From NCBI RefSeq assembly GCF_014647875.1, contig NZ_BMQA01000010.1, positions 186,001 to 250,000 of the forward strand: a stretch of 64,000 bases of DNA. Reading direction: 5' to 3'. The position numbers and the translations under genes were made by a program. Shown in pieces: positions 2,604 through 29,692 of the stretch. This DNA is from Streptomyces brasiliensis (GTDB lineage Bacteria > Actinomycetota > Actinomycetes > Streptomycetales > Streptomycetaceae). Within the stretch, counting starts at the first letter, position 1, and the number at the start of each line of letters is the position of its first letter. Below the pieces are notes generated by a model. That model saw only the letters and a program-made list of their open reading frames with translations. It was not told where the DNA came from and ran no database searches.

Positions 2604-2611
2604 GGCACGCG

Positions 2612-5489: not shown

Positions 5490-6377
5490 TCACCACCCGT
5501 CGGCGTCGACCGCCTCCCGCTCGTCCTCCCCCAGCGCCTCCACCACGGCGTCGACGATGCCCCCGTCGAGCGCCGTGCCCGCCGCCAGGTCCGTCGTACG
5601 GCCGAAGCCCGCGTCCCCGACGGCGACGGCCAGGGTGTAGCGGTTCCCGAGGGACAAGGTGTGGAAGGCCCATCTGCCGACGGTGGCAGGGGTGCCGTCG
5701 GGGCGCAGTACGTCCCCGGGCGCTCCGTCCGGGCAGAAGCCGAAGTCCGTGAAGCGGAAGCGCAGGCCGAGGCCGAGGGCCTTGCTGTAGGCCTCCTTCA
5801 GGGTCCACAGGCGGAGCACGGCCGGGTTGCGTTCCGCGAGCGGCAGGGCCTCGACGCGCTCCAGTTCGTACGGGGTGCACAGGTGCCGGCCGAGCCCGGG
5901 ACCGTACAGGACACGGTCGTTCGGCTCGGCGTCCACGCCGATCGCGCCGCCGGTGGCCAGCCCTACCAGCAACAGGCCGTCGGTGTGGCTGAGGCTGACC
6001 TGCACCCCGTCGTAGCCGCGCAGACAGGGGCGCCCGGTGAGGCCGTAGCCGAGTTCGACGGACTCGGGCCGTACACCACCGAGCGCGGCCGCCGCGGCGA
6101 ACTTCAGCAGGACGCGCGAGGCGGCGAAGCGCGTGCGGACCTGCGGGTGCGTCAGCCCGAGGTAGCGGCCCCAGTCGTGGCCGAGGAGCCCGCGCAGTCG
6201 CGGCAGGCCCGCCCGGTCGGGGCGCCAGTCGGCCTGGCGGGCGAACAGCACCGCGGCGCCGTGCCGGTCCAGGTCAGCGCGTACTCTGCTCCAGTCCCCC
6301 GACGGGCCGCAGATCGCGATCGGCTCCCCGAGCGTCCGGCCCGGGCCCTGGCGCCCGGGTGCCGGCCGTGCTGTCAT
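5490..6377 (-). CDS. Sfp-type 4'-phosphopantetheinyl transferase
   Basis: A 295-residue enzyme that moves phosphopantetheine from CoA to the active-site Ser of carrier proteins. Family motifs are present: 'VSLSHTDGLLLVG', the Mg-binding 'GVDAEP', and 'WTLKEAYSKALGLGL'. It is the last gene of the minus-strand biosynthetic operon and would activate the two discrete ACPs and the PKS ACP. I chose the ATG at 6377 because GGAGG sits 7-11 nt upstream; a weaker ATG lies at 6416. With the chosen start it overlaps the preceding acyltransferase gene by 104 nt, unusually long for this otherwise tightly packed operon. Confidence 0.93.
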   Translation of the reverse strand: MTARPAPGRQGPGRTLGEPIAICGPSGDWSRVRADLDRHGAAVLFARQADWRPDRAGLPRLRGLLGHDWGRYLGLTHPQVRTRFAASRVLLKFAAAAALGGVRPESVELGYGLTGRPCLRGYDGVQVSLSHTDGLLLVGLATGGAIGVDAEPNDRVLYGPGLGRHLCTPYELERVEALPLAERNPAVLRLWTLKEAYSKALGLGLRFRFTDFGFCPDGAPGDVLRPDGTPATVGRWAFHTLSLGNRYTLAVAVGDAGFGRTTDLAAGTALDGGIVDAVVEALGEDEREAVDADGW

Positions 6378-7143
6378 CGAACGCCTCCATCGTGTCGTGG
6401 AGATCTGACAGCACATCGGCCGCGGCCGCGCCGTCGATCACCCGGTGATCGAAGGTGAGGCCGAGCCGCATCACGGGCGCTGGCACCACGACACCGTCGC
6501 GCACCACCGCACGGTCCACGACGCGGCCCGCGCAGAGGGTCACGGCGGTGCCGCCGGCCGAGTGGAAGCCGTCGACGCTCCGGTGGCCGAGCGAGCTGAC
6601 CGAGACGGTGCCGAACACGCCGGCGCGTCGGCGCGGGTCGCGCAGCGCCGCGGCGAACGCGGCCCTGCCGAGCGGCACCGGGAGCCGGCTCAGCAGCCGT
6701 ACGCCCTTGAACTCGAGGAGTTCGGCGGCCTGTTCGCCCCGGTAGCGGTCGACGCGCTCCTGGATCTCGCTCAGGGTCGCCGACTCCAGGCCGGGGACCA
6801 GCGCCGACAGCACCGTGCGCTCGCCCTCTACGGGCCGGTCCAGGGCGAGTTTGGCGGTGACGCCGTCGAAGCGGACGGTCCTCGGGCGGCGCAGCGGTCC
6901 GGGCCACCCGGGGGCCATCGCGGCGTTGGCCTCCGGGTGCCGGTCGAGGACCCGTCCGGCGGCGTACAGCAGATAGCTGACGACCGAGTAGCGCCGACCG
7001 TCCTCGCGGGCGGTGGCGCGGTGCGCCTGGACACGGGTCATGTCGATGTCCGTGTCCAGGTGCACGGGCCGCTGCGCCGCCGCCCACTCCAGGAAGTACA
7101 GGGTGTGGCGGCGGCGCCGTTCGACGGTGACGACGGGGCTCAC
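6274..7143 (-). CDS. E2-type (2-oxoacid dehydrogenase) acyltransferase, tetronate pathway candidate
   Basis: A 289-residue protein made only of the chloramphenicol-acetyltransferase-like catalytic domain of dihydrolipoamide acyltransferases; there is no lipoyl or E3-binding domain. The catalytic signature 'FDHRVIDGAAAADVL' is intact (about residues 231-245). In agglomerin and quartromicin biosynthesis, stand-alone proteins of this kind (Agg4, QmnD4) acetylate the primary hydroxyl of the glycerol-derived tetronate before acetate elimination. The gene starts with a GTG (7143) overlapping the ACP stop by 4 nt, so it is co-translated. No obvious dedicated elimination hydrolase (Agg5/QmnD5 type) is in the window. 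The function is inferred from family and context. Confidence 0.82.
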   Translation of the reverse strand: MSPVVTVERRRRHTLYFLEWAAAQRPVHLDTDIDMTRVQAHRATAREDGRRYSVVSYLLYAAGRVLDRHPEANAAMAPGWPGPLRRPRTVRFDGVTAKLALDRPVEGERTVLSALVPGLESATLSEIQERVDRYRGEQAAELLEFKGVRLLSRLPVPLGRAAFAAALRDPRRRAGVFGTVSVSSLGHRSVDGFHSAGGTAVTLCAGRVVDRAVVRDGVVVPAPVMRLGLTFDHRVIDGAAAADVLSDLHDTMEAFDDSTAGTRAPGPGPDARGADRDLRPVGGLEQSTR

Positions 7144-7412
7144 CCGAGCACCGCCAGCTCGTAGATCTCCTTCAGGGTGCGGGCCTCCAGGACCCTGCCG
7201 ACCGGGATCCTGCGGCCGATGGCGGGCTCCAGGGCGGTGACGAGCTTGAGGAGGTACAGCGAGTCCCAGTCGGGGAGTTCGTCGAAGTCGGCGGCCACCT
7301 GCCCGGGTGCGAGCGGCATCCCGATCTCGTCGTTGACGAGCCGGACGTAGTCGCCGAGGGTGAAGCCGCCTCCGGCGGGAACGGGCGCGGGGACGGTGCT
7401 GTCGACGCTCAT
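7140..7412 (-). CDS. Discrete acyl carrier protein, probable glyceryl-ACP
   Basis: A 90-residue carrier protein. The phosphopantetheine site is Ser51 in 'LPDWDSLYLLKL', where Trp-Asp-Ser replaces the commoner Leu-Asp-Ser. It is wedged between the KAS III-like gene (4-nt ATGA overlap) and the E2 acyltransferase (4-nt overlap). In tetronate clusters the ACP in this position carries the glyceryl unit made by the FkbH protein. That assignment rests on position, since the cluster has a second free ACP (11487-11774) that better fits the fatty-acyl branch. Confidence 0.88.
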   Translation of the reverse strand: MSVDSTVPAPVPAGGGFTLGDYVRLVNDEIGMPLAPGQVAADFDELPDWDSLYLLKLVTALEPAIGRRIPVGRVLEARTLKEIYELAVLG

Positions 7413-8431
7413 ATCTTCTCCAGGGCGAAGCCGGCCTTGATCCACTTGCTGGACTCGACGGCGATCGCGAGGGCCTTCTCGCCGTCGGACATCCGCTCCA
7501 GCAACTTCTCGATCTGCAGGAAGGGCAGGGCGTTTCCGTTGTTGCCGGTGTCCGCGACGCAACTGACGTCCTGCGCGGTCGGCACGTCGAGTTCCTCGGT
7601 GATGCGGCGGGTCATCCGGCCGGACAGCTGGGGCGGCAGCAGATAGTCCAACTGGTCCGCTTCCCAGTCGAGTTCGCCGAGCATCTCCCAGAGGATCTCG
7701 ACGGCCATGACGGGCACGGACTCCTCGATGGCCTTGTAGTCCTCGGTGAGGGCCTGCCGGTCGTCGTACCGGTCGGCGAGCCCGAACCACTCGATGACCT
7801 GCCCTGGCTTGCGGCCCAGCCCGGTGAAGCGGTTGAGGACATGCCGCAGGGCGAGACGCTGTCCGCGCGGCTCGTCGGTGACGACGGCCGCGCCGGCGCC
7901 GTCACCGAAGAGAACGTGGTTGACGAGGTCACCGGGGGCGGCACCGGCCACGTCGCGCTGGAGGTCGAGGTGCTTGCTGCAGACGTCGCCGCCGATGACG
8001 AGTCCGGTCCGGTACTGGCCGGAGGCGATCATCGTCTGGGCCACGCCCAGGGCCTGTACGGCGCCCGCGCAGCCGGACTGGAGCTGGAAGGTGGGCACCT
8101 GGTCCAGGCCGAGCTGGTCGGCGACATGGTTGACCGTGGCCGGCATCAGGGTGTCGGGGGTGGCCGTGCCGAGGACGATGAACTCGATCTCGGACGTGTC
8201 GACTTCGGGGGCGGCGAGCGCCTTCTCGGCGGCCTGCGCGCACAGGTCGGCGAGCGACCAGCGGACCGCTCCGGTGCCGAGGTCCCGGGCGAAGTGCCGC
8301 GTCCGGGTGCCGATGAAGACCTCGATCCAGTCCTCATTGATGCCTAGCACCTTGGCCAGGGTGGCGTTGTCCACCGGGTCACCGGGCAGGGCGGTGCCGA
8401 GGGACGCCAGAAACGTCGTCGGGGTGGTCAT
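7409..8431 (-). CDS. KAS III-like condensing enzyme, tetronate ring formation candidate
   Basis: A 340-residue FabH-fold protein. The nucleophile is Cys121 in 'QLQSGCAGAVQ'. At the place where FabH has its catalytic His (usually 'PHQAN'), this protein reads 'LLPPQLSGRM', so the His appears replaced by Pro. The Asn of the third catalytic site is kept ('DTGNNGNALP'). In tetronate clusters a KAS III-like protein links glyceryl-ACP to the beta-ketoacyl chain and closes the ring. Co-translated with the PKS (ATGA overlap at 8428-8431) and the next ACP. It could instead be an acyl-transferring KAS III, but the FkbH/ACP/E2 neighbours favour the tetronate role. Confidence 0.88.
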   Translation of the reverse strand: MTTPTTFLASLGTALPGDPVDNATLAKVLGINEDWIEVFIGTRTRHFARDLGTGAVRWSLADLCAQAAEKALAAPEVDTSEIEFIVLGTATPDTLMPATVNHVADQLGLDQVPTFQLQSGCAGAVQALGVAQTMIASGQYRTGLVIGGDVCSKHLDLQRDVAGAAPGDLVNHVLFGDGAGAAVVTDEPRGQRLALRHVLNRFTGLGRKPGQVIEWFGLADRYDDRQALTEDYKAIEESVPVMAVEILWEMLGELDWEADQLDYLLPPQLSGRMTRRITEELDVPTAQDVSCVADTGNNGNALPFLQIEKLLERMSDGEKALAIAVESSKWIKAGFALEKI

Positions 8432-11400
8432 GCCGTCCTCTCTTCTTCCATGAGCGCCGGGTTCTCCGCCACGTCGCCGGTGCCCGCGGAACCGGGCGCC
8501 GCCGCGCCGATCTCACGCAGGAAGGCGACCAGGTCGCCGACGGACGAGAGGCGGGGCAACAGATCCTGGACCGTCACCGTGCCGATGCCGGTGAGCCGGG
8601 CCTCCAGCCGGTTCTTCAGCTCCATGATCATGACGGAGTCGAAGCCGAGGTCCTCGTAGAGCCGGTCGTGCGGGCCGACCTCGGCGTCGGTGTAGCCGCC
8701 GACCATCCGGACGGCGCCGAGGACGGCTTGCCCGACCGGGTCCGCCGGACCGCCGGGCCGGTCCAGGGTGAGGACGGCGGCGGGGGCGGTCTCCGGCTCC
8801 CCGTGCGCTACGAGCGCCGGGATCGTCGGCTCGGCCACCGTTCCCTGGCTCCGCACCGGATTCCTCGACCAGTAGCGATGGTCGGTCGAGAAGGCGTACG
8901 GCGGCAGCGGGTGCGGAACCCGTTCCTCGGGTGCGTACACGGCGTCCCAGTCGGGTTCGACGCCGCCCCGGTACAGCTCGGCGAGGGCCTCGGCGAGGTC
9001 CCGGCCGGCGGAGTCGGGGCCGCGCACCGGCAGGACGTGCACCGGGCCCGCGCCGGCGGCGGGGCCACCGAGGCGCCGCACCATCCCGGAGAGCACCGGC
9101 TGGGGGCCGATCTCCACCAGGTGCGTCGGGCCGTCGGCGAGCAGCGCGCCGGCCGCGTCGCCGAACAGCACGGGGGCGCCGATGTGTTCGACCCAGTACG
9201 CGGCGTCCATCGCCTCGCCGTCGAGCACCCGTCCGCGGACGGTGGAGTACAGCGGGATCTCGGGCACTCCCCCGCCGACCTGTTCGGCGATCTCCGCGAA
9301 GCGGTCCAGGACAGGCCGCATCAGCGGTGAGTGGAAGGCGTGCGAGACCTGCAGTGTGCGGGAGGTGACCCCCTCGGCCTCGAGCTCGGCCCCGATCTCG
9401 GCCAGGGGCTCCAGATCACCGGAAAGCACCGTGGCCGTGGGGCCGTTGACCGCCGCGATGCCGACCAGGGGCTCCCGCTCGATCCGCGCCTCCAAGTCCG
9501 CCCGGGTGGTACGGACGGCCAACATGCCGCCGCCTTCCGGGAGTTCCTGCATCAGGGCGCCGCGGGCGGCGATCAGCCGGGCGGCGCCGTCCAGCGGGAG
9601 CGCCCGGGCCAGGACGGCGGCGGCGAACTCGCCGACGCTGTGGCCGAGGAGCATCTCGGGGCGCACGCCGAGTTCCGTCAGGGTACGGCCGAGGGCGTAG
9701 CCGACGGCGAACAGGGCGGGCTGCGTCCACTGCGTACTGTGGACGGCGTCGTCACCGGCGAGGATCAGGTCGCGCACGGACTTTCCGGTGTGCGGCAGCA
9801 GCGCTGCGTCCGCCTCGTCGAGGAAGTGCCGGTACAGCGGCGACTGTTCGTACAGTACGGCGGTCATCCGCGGGTACTGCGAGCCCTGCCCGGTGAACAG
9901 GAACGCGCTGCGGGGCCTTTCGGCGGGCCTGGCGGAGAGCCGGGCCAGCAGCTCGGGGTCGGCGGCCGACTCCCGTAGTCCGGCGACCAGTTCGGCGATG
10001 TCCGTGGCGACGGTCGCGAAGCGGTGGCGGTGGCCGGCCTTGACGCGGTTGCTCCATCTGGCCAGCGGGCCCAGCGGTACCCGGCGGGCCGCTGCCGCGT
10101 CCGCCTGGGCCAGCAGGTTGCGGCGCAGCGCATCGGCGTTCGGCGCGGTGAGGGTGAAGACGGCGGCGCCGATGCCGCCCGGCGCGGCGGTGTTCGCCGG
10201 TTCGGGGCGCGCGGTGTGCGCGGGCGCGGACTCCAGGACGGCGTGGGCGTTGGTGCCGCCCATGCCGAAGCTGCTGAGTCCGGCGACGGTGGGGCCGGCA
10301 GGCAGCCGCAGCGGTGCCTTGAGGAGCCGCAGTCCGTGGTCGCGCAGTTTGAGCTGCTTGCTCTCCTTGGCCGCGAAGCGGCTGGCGGGGACGACCCGGT
10401 GGTGCAGGGACAGGGCGACCTTGATCAGTCCGGCGATGCCGGCGGCGCCCTCGGTGTGGCCGAGGTTGCCCTTGACCGAGCCGAGCGCCATGGGCCTGGC
10501 GGCGCGGCCGGCGTGGTGGTGGCCGAGTGCCTTGACCTCCATCATGTCGCCGAGGGCGGTGCCGGTGCCGTGCGCCTCGGTGAAGACCACGTCGGAGGGT
10601 TCGACGCCGGCCCTGCGGTAGGCGGCGGCGAGCACCTCCTGCTGGGCCCACCGGTTGGGTGCGGTCAGCCCGTTGCTGCGGCCGTCCTGGTTGACGGCGG
10701 TGCCGCGGATGACGGCGTACACGCGCTGGCCGTCGGCGATCGCGTCCCGCAGTCGGCGCAGCACGACCACGCCGACGCCCTCGCCGCGGCCGATGCCGTT
10801 CGCCTCGGCGCTGAAGGGCTTGCACCGCCCGTCGGGGGCGGAGAGCCCGGCCTGGGTGTAGAAGATCGACAGGGCCGGAGTGAGGGCCAAGTTGACGCCG
10901 CCGACGAGTGCGTGGTCGCACTCCTCGGCCAGCAGCGCGTTCGCCGCGAGGTGCGCGGCGACCAGCGAGGAGGAGCAGGCGGTGTCGACGGCGAGGCTGG
11001 GGCCCTTGAGGTCGAGGTGGTACGAGATCCGGTTGGCGGTCATGCAGTAGCCGTTGCCGGAGCCGACCTGGGCGGTGACGTTGGCGTAGTCGGTGAGGTG
11101 CAGTTGCGCCCACTCGTTGCCCATGATGCCGACGAAGACGCCGGTCCGGGTGCCGGCGAGGGTGCGCGGCGGGATGCCCGCGTCCTCGACCGCCCGCCAC
11201 GCGGACTGCAGCAGCAGCCGCTGCTGGGGGTCCATGGCGGCCGCCTCGCGCGGCGAGATGGTGAAGAACTCGTTGTCGAAGGCGTCCGGGTCGGCGATGA
11301 AGCCGCCCTCGGTGGTGTTGGCGTGTCCTTCGTCCCCGGCCGCCGAGTGGAACTCCTCGGCGTCCCACCGCTGCCGGGGCACCTTCCCCACCCCGTCCGC

Positions 11401-11487
11401 GCCGCGCATCAGCAGGTCCCAGTAGGCGCCGGTGTCGGGCGCCCCCGGGAATCTGCAGTCGATGCCGACGATGGCTATGGGCTCCAT
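8428..11487 (-). CDS. Single-module type I polyketide synthase, KS-AT-ACP
   Basis: A 1019-residue synthase. The KS (about 1-430) has Cys171 in 'VDTACSSS' and the His motifs 'EAHGTGT' and '[12 protein letters not shown]'. The AT (about 515-810) has '[10 protein letters not shown]' and 'VSHAFHSP'; His-Ala-Phe-His is the malonyl-CoA signature. The C-terminal ACP has its Ser in '[11 protein letters not shown]'. There are no ketoreductase, dehydratase, enoylreductase or thioesterase domains, so each extension leaves a beta-keto group, which is the substrate needed for a 3-acyl tetronate. The missing thioesterase agrees with off-loading by the KAS III-like enzyme next door. The start ATG (11485-11487) shares one base with the ACP stop upstream (TGATG). 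It may act once or iteratively. Confidence 0.95.
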
Positions 11488-11774
11488 CAGGCGCCGCCGT
11501 CCTTCGCGGCCTCCGCGGCCAGCTCCTCCACGAGGTGGCCGGCGAGGGCGTGGACGGTCGGGTAGTCCCAGGCGGCCGTCGGCTCGATCACCAGGTCGAA
11601 GTCGTCCTCGATGTCTCCGCACAGACTGAGGGCGGCGACGGAGTCGAGGCCGTACTCGGCGAGGGGCACGTCCGGGTCGATCTCGGCGGGCTGCCGCTTG
11701 AGGTAGAGGGCGATGCGCTCGGCCAACCACGTGGTCAGAGACTCGGTGGTGTGTCCGGTGGTCGGAACGGGCAT
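11487..11774 (-). CDS. Discrete acyl carrier protein, probable fatty-acyl carrier
   Basis: A 95-residue ACP with the phosphopantetheine Ser45 in 'EYGLDSVAALSL'. It lies between the two dehydrogenase genes and the PKS, so it is the likely acceptor of the FAAL-activated fatty acid and the scaffold on which the dehydrogenases act before transfer to the PKS ketosynthase. FAAL-plus-ACP loading is known from daptomycin-type lipopeptides. Which of the two free ACPs carries which unit is inferred from gene order only. Confidence 0.88.
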   Translation of the reverse strand: MPVPTTGHTTESLTTWLAERIALYLKRQPAEIDPDVPLAEYGLDSVAALSLCGDIEDDFDLVIEPTAAWDYPTVHALAGHLVEELAAEAAKDGGA

Positions 11775-11876
11775 GGTGCACTCCTCGCGGGGGTGAGCGG
11801 TTGTCGCGTGCTGTCGTGCTGTCGTCGGGGGGCCGTCGCGGACGGGCCGTCGTCCGTGGCGGCCGGCCGGTGTCCG

Positions 11877-13649
11877 TCAGCCGGCCGGCGGGGTGTCGTA
11901 CAGGTCGTAGCTGGTGCGCGCGTGGAACCTGCGCAGTACTTCCTCGTGGACCCGGGCGTCCACGGACGCCGGGAGGTCGGCCGGCCGCCGGCCGAGCCGC
12001 CGGGCGAGCCGGTGCAGTGCGGCGGCGAGCCAGGCGGGGTCGGCGAGGAACGCGTCACCGCCGTCGTGGGACGCCTGCTGCCGGACGCCGATCGCCGAGG
12101 CGGCGGCGAGCAGGACGGCGTAGCGGTCGGCGAGGGCGAAGGCGGCGGGGCGGGCGAGCGCCGTACGGTCCTCGGGCGCGAGCGCGCGGCTCGCCTCCTG
12201 GACCTGGCGCAGCTCGTCCACCAACTGCAGCGCGAGCCCTTGGACGGCCCGCTCCTCGGGCGACGCACCCGGCAGCTGGTCCACTGCGGCGACCAGGGTG
12301 GCGCTGAGCCCGTCCCGCCCACTCGCCAGGGTGAGCCGGCCGTAGGAGAGGTCCGGCAGGTCCGTGCGCGGCTGGAAGAGCTGCGCGGGGGCTGGTTCGT
12401 CGCTGAACCAGGAGCGCCGCGCGAGCCGGGACAGCTGGGGGATGATCGTGGCCTGGCAGGCCGCGGAGCCGGCGTGGCCGAGGCTGAGCACCGGCATGTC
12501 GCGCAGGTGCTTCTGGAAGATGCCGTGCTCGCCGTCGCGGATGTAGAAGCGGGCCCCGAGCACGATGGACAGCTCGTGCATCGCGTCGGTGAGCACTTTC
12601 GGGACGAGGTACTTGGTGGCGGCGGCGAAGACGCTGGTCTGCTCGGGGAGCAGATGCACCGCCCGGGTCGCGGCCAGCGAGAGGCTGTCGCAGGTCAGGA
12701 GGTCGACGAAGGCCCCGGACAGGGTGCCCCTGGCGTGCGGGATGTCCATGACGGACTTGCGGTAGAGCTGTCGGCCGAGCGCGAAGCGCACGACGGTCCG
12801 CAGGGCCGTGTCGGTGGTGCCGACCGCCATGCCGGGGAGCGCGGACCGGGTGATCTGGAAGGCGCGCAGGGCGGTTTCGACGCCCTTGCCCGGCTCACCG
12901 ACGAGGGCCGAGGCGGGTACGGGTGTGTCGTCGAACCGGAGTCCGGACAGGAGGCAGCCGCGCACGCCGACGGTGTCGTAGCGGGGCAGTACCTGCCAGG
13001 TGTCCGTGTCCAGCCCGTCGCGCTCGACGAAGAGGACGGAGTGGCTGCGGCTGCCCGGTGCGGGACTGGTGCGGCTGAACAGGACCCAGGCGTCGGCGCG
13101 TTGGGCGTTGTTGATGACCTGCTTGGCGCCGTTCAGCAGATACCCGCCGCCCTCGGCGGGGCGGGCCTCGAACTCGTTGCGCACGAAGTCGTTGCCGTGC
13201 GCGAGTTCGTGATAGGCGACCGAGACCTTGCCGCCGCCGGTGAGGATCCGCGCGAGGCATGCGCGCTGCGCGGCGTCCCCGGAGGTCCAGATGTTCACGG
13301 CGGCCATGAACGAGGTCACACCGTAGCCGAGACCGAGGGCGACGTCGCGGCGGAACACCTGCCGCATGATCCGGACCAGGGTGTCGAGCCGCTCCAGGCG
13401 GCCGCCCTCGGCACGCGGCACGAAGTCGGCGCCCAGGCCCAGTTCGTCGAGGGCGCGCTCGCCGGGCTCGGAGAGTTCACCGGCCTCGTCCGCCTCGAGC
13501 AGCCGGGTGTAGGAGAGTTCGTTGCCGTCGTCGGTGGGGTCGCCGAGGCGCCGGTCCAGTTCGGCGACGCGGGTCGCGGCCCGCGCTTCCTGGCCGGGCG
13601 CCTCCTGACCGTCCTGTACGGCCCGCTGGAGCTCTGTGCCGATCAGCAT
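11877..13649 (-). CDS. Acyl-CoA-dehydrogenase-like flavoprotein 1, acyl-ACP desaturation candidate
   Basis: At 590 residues this is much longer than the usual 380-400 of acyl-CoA dehydrogenases. It resembles the paired long dehydrogenases of ramoplanin/enduracidin-type lipid pathways, which put double bonds into a carrier-bound fatty acyl chain. Seen here: the central beta domain with 'LLNGAKQVINNAQRADAWVL', the helical 'VVRFALGRQLYRKSV' and a C-terminal helical extension of about 180 residues. Where classical members have the catalytic Glu ('YEGT'-like), this one reads 'LSLGHAGS', so the standard base is not evident. It overlaps the second dehydrogenase by 7 nt, and the two probably act in sequence or as partners. 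Confidence 0.82.
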   Translation of the reverse strand: MLIGTELQRAVQDGQEAPGQEARAATRVAELDRRLGDPTDDGNELSYTRLLEADEAGELSEPGERALDELGLGADFVPRAEGGRLERLDTLVRIMRQVFRRDVALGLGYGVTSFMAAVNIWTSGDAAQRACLARILTGGGKVSVAYHELAHGNDFVRNEFEARPAEGGGYLLNGAKQVINNAQRADAWVLFSRTSPAPGSRSHSVLFVERDGLDTDTWQVLPRYDTVGVRGCLLSGLRFDDTPVPASALVGEPGKGVETALRAFQITRSALPGMAVGTTDTALRTVVRFALGRQLYRKSVMDIPHARGTLSGAFVDLLTCDSLSLAATRAVHLLPEQTSVFAAATKYLVPKVLTDAMHELSIVLGARFYIRDGEHGIFQKHLRDMPVLSLGHAGSAACQATIIPQLSRLARRSWFSDEPAPAQLFQPRTDLPDLSYGRLTLASGRDGLSATLVAAVDQLPGASPEERAVQGLALQLVDELRQVQEASRALAPEDRTALARPAAFALADRYAVLLAAASAIGVRQQASHDGGDAFLADPAWLAAALHRLARRLGRRPADLPASVDARVHEEVLRRFHARTSYDLYDTPPAG

Positions 13650-15445: not shown

Positions 15446-15446
15446 G

Positions 15447-17376: not shown

Positions 17377-19314
17377 TCACCCGGCCTCGTTCCGGAAGCC
17401 CGCGTCGAGGGTCACGTGCCCGGGAACGTCGGGCAGTTCGGTGAGCGGGTGCCTGAACTCGACCGTGCCGTCGGCCGATTCGGCGGCCCGCTCGAAGCCG
17501 AGCGACGGGTAGAGGTCGCGCACCTTGTGGTTCTTGGCGGTGGGCCGGTAGCTCGCGCGCACCTCGGCCGCGCCCGAGTCCCTGGCGTGCTCCAGCAGCG
17601 AGGCGAGCGCGGCCTGCTCGATGCCGCGGGCGAAGACCCGGCAGCTGAGCAGCATGTTGTCGATGCGCAGGGCCCCGTCCTCGCGATGTGCGAAGAGGGC
17701 GCCGACGACCCCGTTGTCGCCGAAGCGGTCGCGGGAGCGCACGGCCAGCACCAAGTGGCCCGGTGAGTCGAGCCGTTCGCGGACGTCGGGTACCTGGAGC
17801 CGGCGGGTGGTGAGGTTGAACTGGTTGGTGCGCAGGGTGATCTGGGCGACCCGGGCCACCTCGTGGTCGCGTACCGGGGCGACCTGCACGGTCACGCCGA
17901 GGGCGCGCAGGTACTCCTCCATCGAGCCGGTGACCTGCTGGAGGTCCTGCCGCTTCGCCTCCTGGCGGTACTGCACGGCGCGGCCCCGGTCCTCGGTGGT
18001 CAGTTCCCGTACGTCGAACCAGCCGTCGGCGAGCAGCCGGTCGATGTGCAGGGCCGGTTCCTCGTCGAGCGCGACCAGGGCGATCTCGGGGAGCGAGGAG
18101 GCGACGAGGCCGCGTTCGAAGGGCGAGTCGTCGGCGAAGACGAGGCTGTCGGTCCCGAGGTTGAGCCGGTCGGCGATGGCGCGGATGGCGCCGTCCTTGG
18201 GTTCCCAGTCGGCGCTGATCCGGACGAAGTCGTCCTCGCGCAGGGTCATGTCGGGGTGGGTGCGCAGCACGTCGAGGACCGGCTCGCGGTCGTTCTTGCT
18301 GCACACCGCGAGCAGTACGCCCTGGCTGCCGATCTGCTTGACCACCCGCTGGAACCGGCCGAACGCCTCACCGCGGTAGGTGGTGGCGGCGGCGATGCCG
18401 TCAGGGCCGTCGTCGCCGAGGATGCCGTCCCAGAGAGTGTTGTCCAGGTCCACGACGAGGACCTTTCTGGCCCGGCCGCGCAGCGTCCGCAGCAGATGGC
18501 CCGCCTGGCGGGCGTACCGGCCGAGCAGTTCCTCCCCCAGGTGCACCTTGGCGTAGGCGGCGAGCCGCGGGTCGCGGACCGGTCCGCCCTCGGCGATCAG
18601 CGGTTCCAGGTCGACGACGTGCAGCCGCGGGTGCGCGGCGGCGAGCCGCAGCATCCCGACGTTGAACTCCCGCCATATGATGGAGAGTTCGGTGCGCGAG
18701 CGGTGGTCCACCAGCTGCTGCGCGTGCTCGGGCAGCAGCGGCAGCGTGTTGAGTACGAGCGTTCCGGTGCCGTGTTCGTCGTAGCGGGCGGCGAGCGCGT
18801 CGAGGAGTTCGAGCTTGCCGGCGGCGGCCTTGGCGACGTCCTCCGTCCCCCAGGGCAGGGGCAGTTCGTCGAAGACGACCTGGGCGTCGAGGAGGCACAG
18901 GGCGAGTTCGGTGCCAGGGGTGTACAGATGGCTGCCGGGGTCCTGGAGGTCGCGCAGCCACGCGTCGTGGTCGCCGGCGCTCACGCGCAACGGGATGCCG
19001 TGGCGGGCTAGTTCCGCGGTGAGCGGTGCCGTCAGTGCGTCGAGCGTGCCGTGTCCCGTGACGGCGACGGTCGCGGGTACGGCACCGGGGTGCCGCGCCA
19101 CGATGTCGTCGGGAGCGACCTTGGCGAGCAGCCGGCCCGCGCGGGACAGCTGGGTCGGCCCGTCGTCCTGCTGCGCGAGTTCGGCGAGCAGTCCGGGCAC
19201 CGCCGGGTACTCGGCGGCGAGGCTCTTCTCGCCGTACAGCGCGCGCAGCCGGTCGAGGGGACCCGCGGGGCCGGTGGGCTCCGGGCCGGACGGCGTCGTC
19301 ACTGCTGTGCTCAC
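17377..19314 (-). CDS. FkbH-like HAD protein, glyceryl-ACP synthase
   Basis: A 645-residue FkbH-family protein. The N-terminal third (about 60-285) is an SGNH-like region. The HAD domain (about 288-450) has the phosphoaspartyl motif 'VVDLDNTLWDGILGDDG', 'AVCSKND' and 'FADDSPFERG'. The C-terminal part (about 480-630) is GNAT-like. The family loads 1,3-bisphosphoglycerate on an ACP as a glyceryl thioester. For methoxymalonyl-ACP two dehydrogenases and an O-methyltransferase would be needed, and none are here, so the tetronate use fits better. It starts with GTG (19314) and is first in the minus-strand operon, divergent from the flavin monooxygenase. Confidence 0.92.
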   Translation of the reverse strand: MSTAVTTPSGPEPTGPAGPLDRLRALYGEKSLAAEYPAVPGLLAELAQQDDGPTQLSRAGRLLAKVAPDDIVARHPGAVPATVAVTGHGTLDALTAPLTAELARHGIPLRVSAGDHDAWLRDLQDPGSHLYTPGTELALCLLDAQVVFDELPLPWGTEDVAKAAAGKLELLDALAARYDEHGTGTLVLNTLPLLPEHAQQLVDHRSRTELSIIWREFNVGMLRLAAAHPRLHVVDLEPLIAEGGPVRDPRLAAYAKVHLGEELLGRYARQAGHLLRTLRGRARKVLVVDLDNTLWDGILGDDGPDGIAAATTYRGEAFGRFQRVVKQIGSQGVLLAVCSKNDREPVLDVLRTHPDMTLREDDFVRISADWEPKDGAIRAIADRLNLGTDSLVFADDSPFERGLVASSLPEIALVALDEEPALHIDRLLADGWFDVRELTTEDRGRAVQYRQEAKRQDLQQVTGSMEEYLRALGVTVQVAPVRDHEVARVAQITLRTNQFNLTTRRLQVPDVRERLDSPGHLVLAVRSRDRFGDNGVVGALFAHREDGALRIDNMLLSCRVFARGIEQAALASLLEHARDSGAAEVRASYRPTAKNHKVRDLYPSLGFERAAESADGTVEFRHPLTELPDVPGHVTLDAGFRNEAG

Positions 19315-19451: not shown

Positions 19452-19507
19452 TTTAGGCGGGCTGCCGACCATCGGCGGAGGATGACTCCTTCTGAAAGGC
19501 AGCGTTG

Positions 19508-20770
19508 ATGACGACAACTGAGCTGACCGCAGAGGTGTGTGTGGTCGGAGGAGGCCCGGCGGGACTCACGCTGGCCGTGGAACTCGCCAAGCGTTCGGTC
19601 TCCGTCGTGGTGCTGGAGCAGAGCGGTCACTTCGACCGGTCGTTCCGGGGCGAGTCGGTCTCCCCCGACTCGGTGTGGCTGCTCGACAGGCTGGGCGTCC
19701 TCGGCCGCCTGAACGGCGCCTACCAGCAGATGCACAGAATGGAGATCGTCGACTCCGGCAGCACGGTGCTGCGGGCCGACTTCCGCCGCTTCCCGTACCC
19801 GCACCCCTACCCGGTGGAGTTGCCCCAGCCGGCGCTGCTCTCGGCCCTGGCGGGCCTCGGGCAGGACGAGCACCCGGAACACTTCGTCCTTGTACGCCGG
19901 GCGACGGCCACCCGCCTGCTGCGCGCGGCCGACGGCAGCGGTCCGGTCACGGGGGTGACGGCGCGCACCCCGGAGGGCGAGATCACGGTGCGGGCGGCGC
20001 TCACCGTGGCGGCGGACGGCCGGTTCAGCAAGGTCCGCGAGATGTCGGGCCTGCCGTACACGAAACTGCCGCTGGACCGTGACGTGGTGTGGCTGAAGCT
20101 GCCGTTCCCGCCCGAGTGGGACGACCGTACGTATCGCATCCGGATCCGCGGCGACCAGCACGGGCTGTTCATCCCGACCCACCCGAACAGCGTGCGCGTC
20201 GGCTTCAACATCCCCAAGGGCGGGCTGAAGGGGCTGCGCGCCCAGGGGCTGCCCGCGCTGTACGAGCGGCTCGACCTGCTCGCTCCCGAGCTGTCCGGGT
20301 CGGTGCGCAGCGAGATCCGCTCCTGGTCCGACACCTCGATGCTGGACATCTTCACCGCGCTGGTGCCGCGCTGGTCCATGCCGGGCCTGGTCCTGATCGG
20401 CGACGCGGCGCACACGCTGACGCCGATCCTGGGGCAGGGCGTCAACCACGCGATCATCGACGCGGTGACGCTGGCCCCGCTGGTCCGCGACGCACTCGGC
20501 GCGGGTGGGGACGAGTCGGCGCTGCTGCGGGCGTGCGAGGAGTTCCAGCGGGCCCGGGAGGAGGCGGTCGGCAAGTCGCGCGGTCTGCAGCTTCGGCAGG
20601 AGCGGCTGTTCGCCCTGCACGGCGCCGGCGGCATCTTCCGCCGCTCGCTGTACCGGGTGGTCGACCAGAGCCAGAAGCTGAAGGAGAAGGTGCTGGGAGG
20701 CGCGTACTTCCAGCTGCAGAAGCCGGGTCCGCACGTCGTGGAGGCGCAGTCCCCCGCCACCCGCGTGTGA
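19508..20770 (+). CDS. FAD-dependent monooxygenase (PHBH fold)
   Basis: A 420-residue class A flavin monooxygenase. It has the N-terminal dinucleotide fold 'CVVGGGPAGLTLAVELA', the middle Asp-Gly motif 'VAADGRFSKVR' and the FAD ribityl-binding 'LIGDAAHTLTPILGQGVNHAIIDA'. Such enzymes hydroxylate or epoxidise aromatic or polyene substrates, and related halogenases and dehydratases exist. The ATG at 19508 was chosen over a TTG one codon earlier. It is transcribed divergently from the FkbH operon and converges on the P450, with a hairpin at 20816-20851. It is likely a tailoring enzyme of the predicted acyl tetronate; the site of action cannot be deduced. Confidence 0.88.
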   Translation: MTTTELTAEVCVVGGGPAGLTLAVELAKRSVSVVVLEQSGHFDRSFRGESVSPDSVWLLDRLGVLGRLNGAYQQMHRMEIVDSGSTVLRADFRRFPYPHPYPVELPQPALLSALAGLGQDEHPEHFVLVRRATATRLLRAADGSGPVTGVTARTPEGEITVRAALTVAADGRFSKVREMSGLPYTKLPLDRDVVWLKLPFPPEWDDRTYRIRIRGDQHGLFIPTHPNSVRVGFNIPKGGLKGLRAQGLPALYERLDLLAPELSGSVRSEIRSWSDTSMLDIFTALVPRWSMPGLVLIGDAAHTLTPILGQGVNHAIIDAVTLAPLVRDALGAGGDESALLRACEEFQRAREEAVGKSRGLQLRQERLFALHGAGGIFRRSLYRVVDQSQKLKEKVLGGAYFQLQKPGPHVVEAQSPATRV

Positions 20771-20815
20771 CCACCCTGTCCGTGGACTGGGTGAGGGCCG
20801 GCGGACGGCACAAGA

Positions 20816-20851
20816 CCCCGGTCCGCATGGGAACCCACGTGCGGACCGGGG
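20816..20851 (+). terminator. Hairpin after the flavin monooxygenase
   Basis: A perfect 12-bp stem pairs 20816-20827 with 20840-20851. The 12-nt loop contains its own TGGG/CCCA pair. It lies 46 nt after the monooxygenase stop and is followed by a T-containing stretch. Confidence 0.65.
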
Positions 20852-21092
20852 CCTTCGTGTGCACTTGCTGAAGCCGGCCGCCCTCCCTGCCCGTGCTCGG
20901 CCGCTGTCCGGAGCCGTACCGGACCCGGGCGTTCCACCACCGCCCCACCGGTGCACGGCCGTTCCACGACCCACCGCACGCCGGCGGGGCCCCGCCACGG
21001 GCCTCCCGCCCGGGCACCGCGCCCCCGGCGCCGGAACACGGCGGCCACGGACTGAGCCGGACGGAGTGATCGGCCCGGCCGGGCGTGCCGGT

Positions 21093-21121
21093 GCCCGGCC
21101 GTCAGCCGGTGACGGCCGGGC
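21093..21121 (-). terminator. Hairpin after the P450 gene
   Basis: A perfect 11-bp G/C stem pairs 21093-21103 with 21111-21121 around a 7-nt loop, 19 nt beyond the P450 stop on the minus strand. Confidence 0.6.
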
Positions 21122-21139
21122 GGTGTTCCGGTGGGTTCG

Positions 21140-22375
21140 TCACCAGGTGACGGGCAGGCGGGTCAGGCCGTGCACCATCATGCCGGTCGTCAGCTCCAGG
21201 GACTCGACCTCCTCCGCGAGCCGCAGACCGGGGAAGCGGTCCAGCAGCGAGGTGAGGACGATCTGCAGCTCCGCCCGGGCCAGTGCGGCGCCCAGGCAGA
21301 AGTGCGGGCCGTGGCCGAACGCGACGTGGTGGACGGCCTCGGGCCGCGCGGGGTCGAACTCGTTCGCCTCCGCGCCGGGGAAGCGCGCCGGGTCCTGATT
21401 GGCGGAGCAGACCGCCGCCAGGACCGCACTGCCCTTGGGAATGACGGTGCCGCCGACCTCGACGTCCTCCAGGGTGATCCGCAGCGGGCCGCCGTCACCG
21501 ATCGGGTTGACGCGCAGCAGCTCCTCGATGGCGTGGTCCATCATCTCGGGGTGCTCACGCAGCGCGGCCATGTGCTCCGGGTGACGCAGCAGGGTCAGCA
21601 CCATCTTGCCGATCATGCTGACGGTGGTCTCGTGACCGGCGACGAGGATGGTCGCCGCCATGACGATCAGCTCGTACTCGTTGAGGCTGCCCTCTTCGTC
21701 ATGGGCGGCGACGAGCGCCCCCATCAGGTCGTCCGTCGGCTCCTCCCGCTTGCGCCCCACCAGTGCCGCCAGGTACCCGATCATCTGCTGGCGCTGCGCG
21801 GCGGTCTCCTCCGCGGTGTGCGCGGTCAGTGAGACGAAGGCGTCCGACCACTCGCGGAACCGGTCTCGGTCCTCGAAGGGCACCCCGAGCAGTTCGCAGA
21901 TCACCATCACCGGCAGCGGGAAGGCGAGCGCCGTGTTGAGGTCGACCGGCCCCTCGAGCTTCTCCATCTCGTCCAGCAGACCGTCGGTCAGCTCCTGGAT
22001 CCGCGGACGCATGTTCTGCACCCGGCGGGCGGTGAACTCCCGGGACACGAGCCTGCGCAGCCGGGTGTGCTCGGGCGCGTCCGTGGTGAACAGGCTGCCC
22101 GGCACGGGCGGCGTGCTGGTGAGCTGAGGCGCGTCGGGGGCGATGGTGGCGGCCCGGCTGAACCTGGCGTCCGCGAGTACGGTGCGCACGTCGTCGTAGC
22201 GGGTCACCACGTACCCCTCGTCGCCGCTGGGCAGCCGGACGTGGGCGACGGGGCACTCGGCCCGCAACTCTTCGTAGACGGGCGGCACTTCGACGGCCGA
22301 AGGACGGTGGAACGGGTAGTTGAGTATCGGCTGGTCCGTCTCCGGTCCGCCCTGCGTCGTCTCCGTCGTTTCCAT
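21140..22375 (-). CDS. Cytochrome P450
   Basis: A 411-residue bacterial class I P450. The I-helix oxygen-binding motif 'LVAGHETTVS' (about 243), K-helix 'EELLRV' and heme-ligand loop 'FGHGPHFCLGAALAR' with the Cys thiolate are all intact, so it should be active. It would need a ferredoxin, and the FdxA-type protein at 1129-1449 is a candidate. It lies downstream of the small DUF4260-like gene on the same strand and converges with the flavin monooxygenase. Likely an oxidative tailoring step of the cluster product; the substrate is not deducible. Confidence 0.95.
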   Translation of the reverse strand: METTETTQGGPETDQPILNYPFHRPSAVEVPPVYEELRAECPVAHVRLPSGDEGYVVTRYDDVRTVLADARFSRAATIAPDAPQLTSTPPVPGSLFTTDAPEHTRLRRLVSREFTARRVQNMRPRIQELTDGLLDEMEKLEGPVDLNTALAFPLPVMVICELLGVPFEDRDRFREWSDAFVSLTAHTAEETAAQRQQMIGYLAALVGRKREEPTDDLMGALVAAHDEEGSLNEYELIVMAATILVAGHETTVSMIGKMVLTLLRHPEHMAALREHPEMMDHAIEELLRVNPIGDGGPLRITLEDVEVGGTVIPKGSAVLAAVCSANQDPARFPGAEANEFDPARPEAVHHVAFGHGPHFCLGAALARAELQIVLTSLLDRFPGLRLAEEVESLELTTGMMVHGLTRLPVTW

Positions 22376-22502
22376 GCGTTTCCTCCGGCAACAGGTGCTC
22401 AGCGGTTACTTGTATGCGGTGGTCCGGTCTCCGGGGCGTGGCGAGAGGCGCTGCCGGGGACCCGACGAGCCTCGCAGCAACGGCTTGCGCGGGACCAAAG
22501 CG

Positions 22503-22916
22503 TCAGCGCTGCCGGCCGTCCGCCGTACGCAGGCCGAAGCCGAAGGCCCGGTCGGAGGCGATGTGCTGCAGCCAGGCCAGACCGAAGTTGAACAGGGGGA
22601 CGGCGATGGCCGGCGAATCGGGGACCAGACAGCTGAGCATGACGAGGAGGGCGACGACGGGCCGGTGCAGGAGGTTGTAGAGGGGAACGGCCTGGGGAGA
22701 GAGCCGGCCGTGCTGGTGCGGGCCGGAGAGACCGACGAGGAACGACAGGTCGGGCACGACGATCCCGGCGACGACCGCGACGATCACCCATCCTCCGTAC
22801 TTCGCCGCCTCGAACACCGCCCAGATCAGCAGGAGGGCCGACAACAGCCCCCAGGCGATCCGGACCTGCCGTGAGGCCGAGCTCCTGATGGCGCCCTTCG
22901 TGGCGTCGTGGGTCAC
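22503..22916 (-). CDS. Small membrane protein, DUF4260-like
   Basis: A 137-residue protein with about four hydrophobic segments ('IAWGLLSALLLIWAVFEAA', 'VIVAVVAGIVVPDL', 'PLYNLLHRPVVALLVML', 'AIAVPLFNFGLAW') and a conserved-looking His/Asp set ending 'WLQHIASDRAFGFGLRT', as I recall for DUF4260. The GTG at 22916 is supported by an AAAGGAA site about 8 nt upstream. Function is unknown. Its promoter region carries a palindrome (23023-23038) closely related to one upstream of the second SARP gene, suggesting shared control. Confidence 0.7.
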   Translation of the reverse strand: MTHDATKGAIRSSASRQVRIAWGLLSALLLIWAVFEAAKYGGWVIVAVVAGIVVPDLSFLVGLSGPHQHGRLSPQAVPLYNLLHRPVVALLVMLSCLVPDSPAIAVPLFNFGLAWLQHIASDRAFGFGLRTADGRQR

Positions 22917-23022
22917 GGAGCTGTTCCTTTCGCGATGGTTCTGTGAGCGCTCCGGGGCGCCGCCGTACGGGCGTGGTGATCCCCGCGAAGCGGGACCCCG
23001 GCATGGCATGTGAATGGCCGAA

Positions 23023-23038
23023 GCGTGAAATTCTCACG
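23023..23038. promoter_or_regulatory. Palindromic operator, copy 1
   Basis: GCGTGAAATTCTCACG is an inverted repeat (CGTGA / TCACG), about 105 nt upstream of the DUF4260-like start. It shares its first nine bases and overall symmetry with the site at 24863-24879 upstream of the SARP gene. It is probably the binding site of one regulator; identity unknown. Confidence 0.5.
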
Positions 23039-23073
23039 ACCCGGCCGCGGTGCTCGCGGTGTGTGTCCGCCGG

Positions 23074-23847
23074 TTACACCGCGATCCGTTCCGTGGCGTA
23101 CCGGCGGGTCAGGGAGGCGAGTTCGCGCAGGAAGGCGCCCTCGTCCGATCTGACGAAGAAGTGTCCGCCGGGCATCGTGCGCACGGCGTAGCCGGCTCCC
23201 GCGTGCCGCCGCCAGGAGAGCACCTCGTCGACACTGACGAGCCGGTCTCCCCGTCCGGCGAACAGGTGCAGCGGCACCCGCAGCGGCTCGGTGTGGACAG
23301 CGCCGCTGCCGAGGCACAGCCGGAGGTCGTCGCGGGCCACCGGGAGCAGCGCGGAGAGGAATTCGGGATGGTCGAGCAACGTCTGCGGGATGCCGCCGAG
23401 ATCCATCAGACCGGCGACGAGTTCCTCGTCCCCGGCGTCCGGGTCGGCGATCGCCGGGGCCGGCAGGTGCGGGGCGCGGTAGGCGCTCAGCACGAGTGCC
23501 CGGGGCAGAGTCGCGCCGCGCTGCTGCCGGCGCCGGGCGAGCGAGTAGGCGATGAGCGCGCCCATGCTGTGGCCGTAGAAAATGTGCGGCTCGGACAGCT
23601 CCTCGTCGAGCTGCGCGTCCATGTCGTCGATGAGGGCGTCCAGATCGGTGAACCTGGGTTCGCTGAACCGTTCCTCGCGGCCGGGCAGTTGCACGGGCAT
23701 CACCCGTACTCCGGCGTCCAGGGCGTCGAGGCCGCGCTGCCATCGCCTGTACGCCGAGGCTCCGCCGCCCGCGTACGGGAAGCAGAACAACCGTGTCGCA
23801 GGGGCCGGTTCGTGATCCGGGCGCTTCCGGGACAGGTATCGCGTCAT
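23074..23847 (-). CDS. Type II thioesterase
   Basis: A 257-residue alpha/beta hydrolase of the RifR/GrsT type that clears misprimed carrier proteins in polyketide and peptide assembly. Seen: 'FCFPYAGGGASAYRRW' near the N-terminus, nucleophile Ser in 'FYGHSMGALIA' (about residue 96), Asp in 'FAGRGDRLV' and His in 'MPGGHFFV'. It lies 117 nt downstream of the second SARP gene and presumably belongs to the same regulatory unit. It is the only thioesterase-like protein in the cluster and lacks features of a chain-releasing PKS domain. Confidence 0.93.
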   Translation of the reverse strand: MTRYLSRKRPDHEPAPATRLFCFPYAGGGASAYRRWQRGLDALDAGVRVMPVQLPGREERFSEPRFTDLDALIDDMDAQLDEELSEPHIFYGHSMGALIAYSLARRRQQRGATLPRALVLSAYRAPHLPAPAIADPDAGDEELVAGLMDLGGIPQTLLDHPEFLSALLPVARDDLRLCLGSGAVHTEPLRVPLHLFAGRGDRLVSVDEVLSWRRHAGAGYAVRTMPGGHFFVRSDEGAFLRELASLTRRYATERIAV

Positions 23848-23964
23848 GGTGGTCCGTCTCGGTTCCGTCCAGGGGGTGGGTGGGGGGATGCCCGGCTCCC
23901 GGGTGGGCTGCGCGAATCCCGCGGGGCGGACCCGGCGGGCGCGGCCCCACACTGCCCGGGACCG

Positions 23965-24765
23965 CTAAAAGGCCGCCAAACTCGGTGCCGTGAGGTCGAG
24001 TTGGGGGTCGGCCGCGAGGACCGCCCGGTGTAGTCGCTGGATGCGCAGGGAGGGCTCTATACCCAGCTCCTCCACGGTCGACGCGCGTAGCTTTCGGAAA
24101 ATTTCGAGCGCCTGCCACGAGCGACCGCTTCGGTAGAGCGCGAGCATCAGCAGCGCGTGCAGACTTTCCTCGAGCGGGAAACGCTCGGTGAGCGCGAGGA
24201 GTTCGCCGATCACCTCGGCATGTCTGCCGAGCCGCAGATCGGCGGTGATCCGTCCCTCCAGCGCGGAGCGCCGTGTCTCCTCCAGCCGGAGCGACTCGAC
24301 GCGCAGCGCCGGTCCGATCCGCACGTCGGCGAGGACCGGCCCGCGCCACAGGGCGAGCGCCTCGCCCAGCAGCTTCGACGCGGCCTCGTCGTCGCCGCCG
24401 GCCAGGGCCCGCAGCCCGCGGGCGGTGAGCCGCTCGAAGACTTCGGCGTCGATGGCGTACGTGGGCATGTTCAGCACGTACCCGGCGTAGCTGCGGCTCA
24501 GGACCTCCTTCGGCGCACACTCGTGCTCCGGTCCCAGAGCGAGGGCGATGGCCCGGCGCAACTGCTTGACATAGGTCTGCACCACACCCGCGGGCCCGCT
24601 GGGGGGACTCGCGTCCCACAGCTCCTCCGTCAGGGTCGTCACCTTCACGTCCCCGCCCGCGTTGACCGCCAACAACGCAAGCATCTGGCGCGGCTTGGCC
24701 GCGCTCGGCACCACGGAGGTGCCACAGATGTCCACCACGAGCGGCCCGAGAACTCCGATCTCCAT
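23965..24765 (-). CDS. Small SARP-family pathway activator
   Basis: A 266-residue SARP (ActII-ORF4/DnrI class). The winged-helix domain (about 1-95, 'IGVLGPLVV', 'LWDASPPSGP', 'VQTYVKQLRRAI') is followed by the activation domain (about 100-255, 'IDAEVFERLTARG' to 'ELGIEPSLRIQRLH'). It is a stand-alone SARP with no ATPase part, unlike the 910-residue one at 2612-5344. The ATG at 24765 has AAGGAG 8 nt upstream. It probably activates the operons read from the repeats in the cluster promoter region. A 17-nt palindrome at 24863-24879 lies in its promoter region. Confidence 0.93.
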   Translation of the reverse strand: MEIGVLGPLVVDICGTSVVPSAAKPRQMLALLAVNAGGDVKVTTLTEELWDASPPSGPAGVVQTYVKQLRRAIALALGPEHECAPKEVLSRSYAGYVLNMPTYAIDAEVFERLTARGLRALAGGDDEAASKLLGEALALWRGPVLADVRIGPALRVESLRLEETRRSALEGRITADLRLGRHAEVIGELLALTERFPLEESLHALLMLALYRSGRSWQALEIFRKLRASTVEELGIEPSLRIQRLHRAVLAADPQLDLTAPSLAAF

Positions 24766-29677: not shown

Positions 29678-29692
29678 TCAAGAAGACCTAAG

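Follow-up and report, generated by a model that had tools for sequence, protein, structure and literature searches.

We analysed a gene cluster of Streptomyces brasiliensis that combines genes for loading and desaturating a fatty acid with genes resembling those of tetronate assembly. It lies in a 64,000-nucleotide stretch of DNA (the window) that spans positions 186001-250000 of contig C10 (NZ_BMQA01000010.1) in a genome of 10.7 Mb (G000). Coordinates are window positions unless a C10, C15, L or G label is given; L146 denotes C10:166001-186000, directly left of the window. Families were called by Pfam and NCBIfam profile scans with curated cut-offs, Protein Data Bank (PDB) relatives were identified by phmmer, and loci in other genomes were sorted by tblastn. 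The cluster genes at 5490-24765 are all on the minus strand except one, and they follow each other in this order from 24765 down to 5490 (ACP, acyl carrier protein):

23965-24765, minus strand: SARP regulator (PF03704, 6.1e-43)
23074-23952, minus strand: type II thioesterase (PF00975, 1.6e-41)
22503-22916, minus strand: short DUF4260 protein with a hydrophobic-looking sequence, probably a membrane protein (PF14079, 3.3e-12)
21140-22375, minus strand: cytochrome P450 with the heme-Cys motif FGHGPHFCLG (PF00067, 1.6e-38)
19505-20770, plus strand: FAD-dependent monooxygenase (FMO), PRK06185-like (PF01494, 5.2e-32)
17377-19314, minus strand: FkbH-type glyceryl-ACP synthase (TIGR01686, 312.6 bits, cut-off 146.65)
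15447-17234, minus strand: fatty acyl-AMP ligase (FAAL; PF00501, AMP-binding, 3.8e-60)
13643-15445, minus strand: ACADa, acyl-CoA-dehydrogenase (ACAD)-like desaturase with Asp at the base position (Pfam, alignment)
11877-13649, minus strand: ACADb, ACAD-like desaturase with His at the base position (Pfam, alignment)
11487-11774, minus strand: ACP1, free ACP (DSV motif, read from the DNA)
8428-11487, minus strand: KS-AT-ACP, a single non-reducing polyketide synthase (PKS) module with a ketosynthase, a malonyl-type acyltransferase (AT) and an ACP (Pfam, motifs; ATG at 11487)
7409-8431, minus strand: KASIII, AbyA1/RkD-type tetronate-forming enzyme (56% identity to AbyA1, PDB 5by7; phmmer 2.7e-114)
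7140-7412, minus strand: ACP2, adjoining KASIII (DWDSL in the translation; no NCBIfam match)
6274-7143, minus strand: E2-type acyltransferase, Agg4/AbmA4-like (PF00198, 7.6e-17; HRVIDG motif)
5490-6416, minus strand: 4'-phosphopantetheinyl transferase (PPTase; PF01648, 1.7e-15; the start may be an internal Met)

The GC content at third codon positions of the listed cluster open reading frames (ORFs) was 0.87-0.95. The gene order from SARP to PPTase is repeated in genome G172 with protein identities of 73-91%, and the grouping is therefore beyond chance. A first-pass annotation, made from the letters alone, had named FAAL, a free ACP, two long ACAD-like proteins, FkbH, an ACP, KASIII, E2, a single KS-AT-ACP, a flavin monooxygenase and a P450; all of them were recovered by Pfam, NCBIfam and motifs. 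The listed ORF start of KS-AT-ACP at 11781 overlaps ACP1 and is probably wrong; the ATG at 11487, directly after ACP1, was preferred. A 212-residue ORF at 22399-23037 with no Pfam or NCBIfam match was rejected as a wrong frame over the DUF4260 gene. In several lipid-tetronate clusters the DUF4260 protein is again found together with a P450 and an FMO.

KASIII showed a single strong relative in the PDB, 5by7, whose title is 'AbyA1 - tetronic acid condensing enzyme', and the next relative scored only 4.9e-28. A model of KASIII (mean predicted local distance difference test score 80.3) could be superimposed on 5by7 over 318 residues with a Z score of 42.2, compared to a Z score of 36.2 and 25% identity for E. 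coli FabH. In a tree of 43 KASIII rows, 40 family rows, including those from PKS loci without FAAL, were separate from the three other KASIII matches of the same genome; this tree is a quick search that gave long-branch warnings for the KASIII rows of our own genome, G283, L203, G088 and G288, and its group E requires two changes. The His of the FabH HQAN motif is present in two of these three other matches and is replaced by Pro in the family, where the motif reads PPQxS in 36 of 40 rows and PPQLGG or TPQLNG in the remaining four. E2 matches only the C-terminal portion of PF00198, and no lipoyl domain was matched in it by Pfam. It shares 48-58% identity with the E2 of five actinobacterial tetronate loci without FAAL, 36% with the E2 of Methylosinus, and 30-37%, over short stretches, with the other E2 proteins of its own genome. 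The first-pass annotation had held that a grouping of KASIII and E2 with non-tetronate families would speak against tetronate assembly; no such grouping was seen in the KASIII tree, and the nearest E2 proteins, by identity, are those of tetronate loci. ACP2 corresponds to AbmA3 in the five-gene abmA1-A5 set of neoabyssomicin and presumably carries the glyceryl unit, while E2 would presumably acetylate a 5-hydroxymethyl group. The assignment of KASIII, FkbH, ACP2 and E2 to a tetronate set is thus supported by homology, as first proposed, with KASIII close to AbyA1 and FkbH above its cut-off. A second FkbH-like stretch (35% identity) was noticed elsewhere in the genome, at C15:109636-110616 in a 2489-residue open frame.

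The lipid part of the cluster resembles the starter modules of lipopeptides. FAAL models were among the best matches of the ligase, the second best being a fatty-acid--AMP-ligase model. ACADa and ACADb have ~600 residues each, and ACP1 is presumably the partner of FAAL. At the position where, by our alignment, medium-chain acyl-CoA dehydrogenase has its catalytic Glu, there is Asp in 33 of 33 ACADa rows and His in 39 of 39 ACADb rows, also in the copies beside nonribosomal peptide synthetases (NRPS); these counts cover rows above 42-43% identity and 400-450 residues only, and row L196, labelled NRPS, is G116. Homologues of FAAL, ACADa, ACADb and ACP1, mostly 44-55% identical, co-occur in other genomes. 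Eight outside loci were taken from a longer match list for their high ACADa similarity, and the full set was present in six of them, with no ACP1 match in L193 and no full-length FAAL match in L194. All four of these eight loci whose large ORFs were scanned contained condensation and AMP-binding domains. Judged from these relatives, the FAAL-ACAD-ACAD-ACP set is the lipopeptide desaturation module, which bears out the earlier likening to ramoplanin. No NRPS condensation domain was found in the 20 window ORFs scanned by Pfam or in 9 ORFs to the left. The AT of KS-AT-ACP carries a HAFH motif in its translation, which we take to indicate the malonyl type. Lipopeptide clusters in which ACADs sit between FAAL and ACP yield lipids with a single double bond or with two (passages of PMC9113097 and PMC8552735). 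PMC9113097 attributes two double bonds, likely Δ2 and Δ4, to the ACAD pairs in taromycin and malacidin, and PMC8552735 draws the comparison with ramoplanin.

We searched 296 genomes for relatives of KASIII (E ≤ 1e-40) and found them in 46 genomes at 50 places; the other 49 places were judged on fetched stretches, and several of those without FAAL lie on short contigs. FAAL was present in the fetched stretch at 27 of the 50 places, and clusters with two ACADs at 16. The notion that the two toolkits are rarely seen together was therefore abandoned. The places could be sorted into four types and a remainder:

Type A, 13 places: FAAL and two ACADs (on separate contigs in G028; ACADs further upstream in G116)
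Type B, 8 places: FAAL with a single ACAD; neither E2 nor an elimination enzyme was seen
Type C, 5 places: FAAL, no ACAD, an elimination enzyme, no E2 match (including G168, a 6.5 kb contig with no FAAL or elimination enzyme seen, assigned from the tree)
Type D, 3 places: FAAL, two ACADs and FMO in a different order

At the remaining 21 places no full FAAL was found; 13 of them had a PKS match, and 12 showed KASIII, FkbH, ACP, E2 and an α/β hydrolase in this order within the fetched stretch, as in abmA1-A5. In the KASIII tree, types A to D each fell on one side of a branch, with a support of 80 for type A. In the FAAL, ACADa and ACADb trees, a single branch likewise separated the rows of tetronate clusters from those beside NRPS. 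The outside rows of these trees came from the eight loci chosen for high ACADa similarity, and the trees omit L029 (apparently the same contig as G116), L040, matches with stop codons and matches under the length or identity limits. This pattern fits, but does not prove, a single joining of the desaturation and tetronate toolkits. Type-A genes occur, among others, in S. griseosporeus, S. jumonjinensis, S. stelliscabiei, S. neyagawaensis, S. flaveus and Kitasatospora indigofera, and in Streptomyces sp. NBC_01435 one copy is carried by a linear plasmid of 1.04 Mb. The type-A cluster of G128 (L122/L123) keeps KASIII and the elimination enzyme and had no match to FkbH, ACP2, E2 or PPTase in 38 kb; it may be rearranged or decaying. 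FAAL tetronate clusters without ACAD occur in G063, G067, G049, L204 and as a second copy in G159, with an AbyA5-type enzyme and no E2 match in the fetched stretch. Plasmid pOB3b3 of the methanotroph Methylosinus trichosporium OB3b (L203, 8995-19002) holds a tetronate-like cassette of consecutive genes for KASIII, HAD-IIIC/FkbH, ACP, E2, an FAD monooxygenase (39% identical to the window FMO), an α/β hydrolase and a type I PKS.

The cluster extends beyond the left end of the window, and the interval 5490-24765, first taken as the whole cluster, proved too short. At 1e-4, the window yielded no α/β hydrolase of the AbyA5 type. An elimination enzyme of the AbyA5/Agg5 type is encoded at C10:173673-174686, 11.3-12.3 kb left of the window start; it is 67% identical to the hydrolase query, and within the PDB it comes closest to entries for AbyA5 (1.7e-93). 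With E2 in the window, the acetylation-elimination pair is therefore complete and a 5-methylene tetronate would be expected. An acetyl ester as the end product, proposed for a cluster without an elimination enzyme, was dropped with this finding. Between the window and the elimination enzyme lies a block of sugar genes, given here in order away from the window:

L146:18566-19900: GT1, EryCIII-like glycosyltransferase (438.6 bits against a cut-off of 440 in an activator-dependent glycosyltransferase model)
L146: RmlA (417 bits, cut-off 320.25)
L146: RmlB (TIGR01181, 418.1 bits, cut-off 365.1)
L146: epimerase/reductase-like protein
L146: RfbH-type pyridoxal phosphate-dependent 3-dehydrase (678.9 bits, cut-off 423; PAHHLT motif)
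L146: second epimerase/reductase-like protein
L146: NDP-hexose 2,3-dehydratase (PF03559, 546.4 bits)
L146: 3-ketoreductase (closest PDB entry 'Sugar 3-ketoreductase', 1.1e-102)
L146: GT2, macrolide-transferase-family glycosyltransferase (391.9 bits, cut-off 260)
L146: AbyA5-type elimination enzyme
L146: histidine kinase

The His in the PAHHLT motif of the 3-dehydrase presumably stands where aminotransferases have Lys. Of the two epimerase/reductase-like proteins, either of which may be the 4-ketoreductase, EPIa had no PDB relative at 1e-15 and EPIb only one (6.6e-9). The gene set would fit a pathway to a TDP-2,3,6-trideoxyhexose of the amicetose or rhodinose type. A supply of RmlB in trans had been considered and was dropped, as the TIGR01181 match lies within the block. 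The sugar block is contiguous beside the same cluster in G172 and lies on split contigs in G003 and G028. In G116, GT1, RmlA, RmlB, the 3-dehydrase, the 2,3-dehydratase and the 3-ketoreductase are arranged differently; together with both ACADs they precede the tetronate core on a shared contig, and GT2 and the second reductase were not seen within the stretch fetched. In total, 5 of the 13 type-A places have sugar genes. The elimination enzyme stands near E2/PPTase or KASIII in other type-A clusters.

We propose, with moderate confidence, that the window holds the right-hand part of a ~39 kb cluster, extending from ~14 kb left of the window to 24765, for a glycosylated 3-(2,4-dienoyl)-5-methylenetetronate. 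We infer the reactions, the chain length, the double-bond positions and the sites of oxidation and glycosylation from the observed gene content, homology and synteny. FAAL would load a fatty acid onto ACP1, and ACADa and ACADb would introduce two conjugated double bonds into the carrier-bound chain. KS-AT-ACP would then add one malonate without reduction to give a β-ketoacyl-ACP, and FkbH would make glyceryl-ACP2. The AbyA1-type KASIII may join the β-ketoacyl and glyceryl units and release a 3-(2,4-dienoyl)-5-hydroxymethyltetronate, whose hydroxymethyl group would be acetylated by E2 before the AbyA5-type enzyme eliminates acetate to leave the 5-methylene group. Finally, FMO and P450 may oxidise the product, and GT1 and GT2 would attach a sugar from the on-cluster TDP-2,3,6-trideoxyhexose pathway. 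That the product is an acyl tetronate is highly probable, and the 5-methylene group can be assigned with good confidence; the dienoyl chain and the glycosylation are each likely. The 3-acyl tetronic acid with a conjugated chain predicted at first therefore stands in its core, whereas a bare hydroxymethyl acyl tetronate is no longer the likely product, since the elimination enzyme, the trideoxysugar genes and the glycosyltransferase genes alter the prediction.

Several observations weigh against this proposal. The NCBIfam scores of KASIII, FAAL (452 bits against a cut-off of 775), E2 and PPTase are lower than the curated cut-offs of the matched models. No activator gene for a GT1-type transferase was recognised; the window P450 scored 128.8 bits against the activator model (cut-off 343) and keeps its heme Cys. 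No sugar gene was matched at 8 of the 13 type-A places within the 31-38 kb fetched, and glycosylation is therefore lineage-specific. Furthermore, two regulatory genes and an AfsA-like gene separate the core from the sugar genes. These last two points favour an alternative in which the sugar genes belong to a pathway next door and the cluster itself yields an aglycone, a 3-dienoyl tetronate with a methylene or hydroxymethyl group. However, in G000, G172, G003 and G028 the far side of the sugar block is occupied by the elimination enzyme, and in G116 one contig carries the sugar genes together with the ACADs, both upstream of the tetronate core, so that we regard the aglycone as a doubtful outcome, although one to be taken seriously. 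The mode of action of each ACAD is also uncertain because Glu is replaced by Asp or His at the base position. One ACAD may not be a simple α,β-dehydrogenase, and the product would then be a lipid tetronate in which a double bond stands isolated, the diene is shifted or the ring turns out differently. The invariant difference between ACADa (Asp) and ACADb (His) speaks for this, and no mechanistic studies of such enzymes were reported according to the consulted part of PMC9113097; the same source, however, credits each ACAD pair, that of taromycin and that of malacidin, with two double bonds (Δ2 and Δ4 being likely), and we consider such an outcome unlikely.

FkbH proteins serve two routes, and the tetromadurin cluster has one of each (PMC7489565, in part), so FkbH and the ACADs could instead make a methoxymalonyl- or hydroxymalonyl-ACP extender for a polyketide with no tetronate formed. 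A methoxymalonyl-ACP pathway has an O-methyltransferase and two glyceryl-ACP dehydrogenases beside FkbH, whereas no methyltransferase was found among the 20 window ORFs and the 9 left-hand ORFs scanned by Pfam. In addition, KASIII is of the AbyA1 type, the ACADs resemble desaturases beside NRPS, and only one non-reducing module is present. The methoxymalonyl route was rejected on the missing methyltransferase and the type of KASIII, and an extender role as a whole is very improbable. Returning to the proposed dienoyl methylenetetronate, its diene could undergo a [4+2] reaction with the exocyclic methylene group of the same or another molecule to give cyclised or dimeric glycosylated tetronates without a modular PKS. 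Such a fatty-acid-derived spirotetronate is a speculative and improbable extension; spirotetronate clusters have a modular type I PKS, as opposed to the one KS-AT-ACP found here.

Comparison with known systems showed that neoabyssomicin and abyssomicin (abmA1-A5, abyA1-A5) use the same five functions, namely a ketoacyl-ACP synthase, a glyceryl-ACP synthase, an ACP, an E2 acyltransferase and an α/β hydrolase, and also have a type II thioesterase. In the PDB, KASIII and the elimination enzyme have the solved structures of AbyA1 and AbyA5, respectively, as their nearest relatives. However, the abyssomicin acyl chain comes from a modular PKS, as opposed to FAAL, ACADs and one KS-AT-ACP here, and the tetronate genes are not consecutive as in the abmA1-A5 cassette, the last one lying left of the window. 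The abmA1-A3 knockouts gave no product, and the abmA4 and abmA5 knockouts gave the masses of the hydroxymethyl tetronate and the acetyl tetronate, respectively (excerpts of PMC5819245). The likeness to RK-682 and agglomerin, compared by review description only, lies in the FabH-like and FkbH-like proteins and the ACPs. RK-682 is saturated, keeps its hydroxymethyl group and carries no sugar, and to our knowledge it has no acetylation-elimination pair, in contrast to the E2 and elimination enzyme present here. These two enzymes instead correspond by homology to the E2-type acetyltransferase and AbyA5/Agg5-type enzyme expected of agglomerin-type 5-methylene tetronates. Some tetronates draw their chains from fatty acid biosynthesis, and Agg4/Agg5 carry out the acetylation-elimination of agglomerin (PMC4979870, in part). 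The starter modules of taromycin, malacidin, rotihibin and ramoplanin consist of the same FAAL-ACAD-ACAD-ACP gene set with the ACADs between FAAL and ACP. They feed an NRPS condensation domain, whereas the module here presumably feeds KS-AT-ACP and the tetronate KASIII. Pathways to 2,3,6-trideoxyhexoses share RmlA, RmlB, the 2,3-dehydratase, the 3-ketoreductase, the RfbH-type 3-dehydrase (HHLT) and two epimerase/reductase-like proteins with the block described above, which here is attached to a lipid tetronate. Every enzyme family involved is already known. As weak evidence, no named product of the FAAL/ACAD/tetronate combination was found in the open literature searched, most subscription journals lying outside that scope; the first-pass annotation could name no cluster with this exact gene set, and we found none there either, nor one assigned to another product.

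Three genes lie between the cluster core and the left end of the window:

82-819, plus strand: LuxR/NarL-type response regulator (response-regulator models, below cut-offs)
1275-2603, plus strand: AfsA/ScbA-like synthase of a γ-butyrolactone-type signal (PF03756, 1.3e-20; ScbA_BarX, 100.5 bits, below the cut-off of 200)
2408-5344, plus strand: large SARP-type regulator with BTAD, NB-ARC and TPR domains (Pfam)

The counterpart of the response regulator adjoins the cluster in G172, G103, G122, G128, G159, G088 and G138, and it is presumably the partner of the histidine kinase left of the window. The AfsA-like gene is kept at the same cluster edge in several type-A loci, of which the large SARP is also a conserved neighbour. 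Right of the cluster, an AMP-binding ligase is followed by a PaaX-type regulator (28043-30505). The window further contains an RNA repair pair at 41556-45658, the polynucleotide kinase-phosphatase Pnkp and the Hen1 methyltransferase, both far above cut-off, and a methylmalonyl-CoA mutase small-subunit-like protein at 61544-63361 (593.7 bits, cut-off 617.25).

Clusters of this kind form a widespread family whose products are probably lipid tetronates and whose common feature is the coupling of a lipopeptide desaturation module to a tetronate release cassette. The natural versions differ in the number of desaturases (two, one or none) and in the presence of the acetylation-elimination pair or the sugar pathway. 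With such a series, carrier-bound ACADs, which have been little studied, and the tailoring of tetronates become directly testable in clusters of ~20-40 kb without a giant PKS. Many tetronates are antibacterial, and they are able to imitate phosphate-like anions (PMC4979870, in part); a glycosylated, unsaturated member would therefore be a reasonable discovery target.

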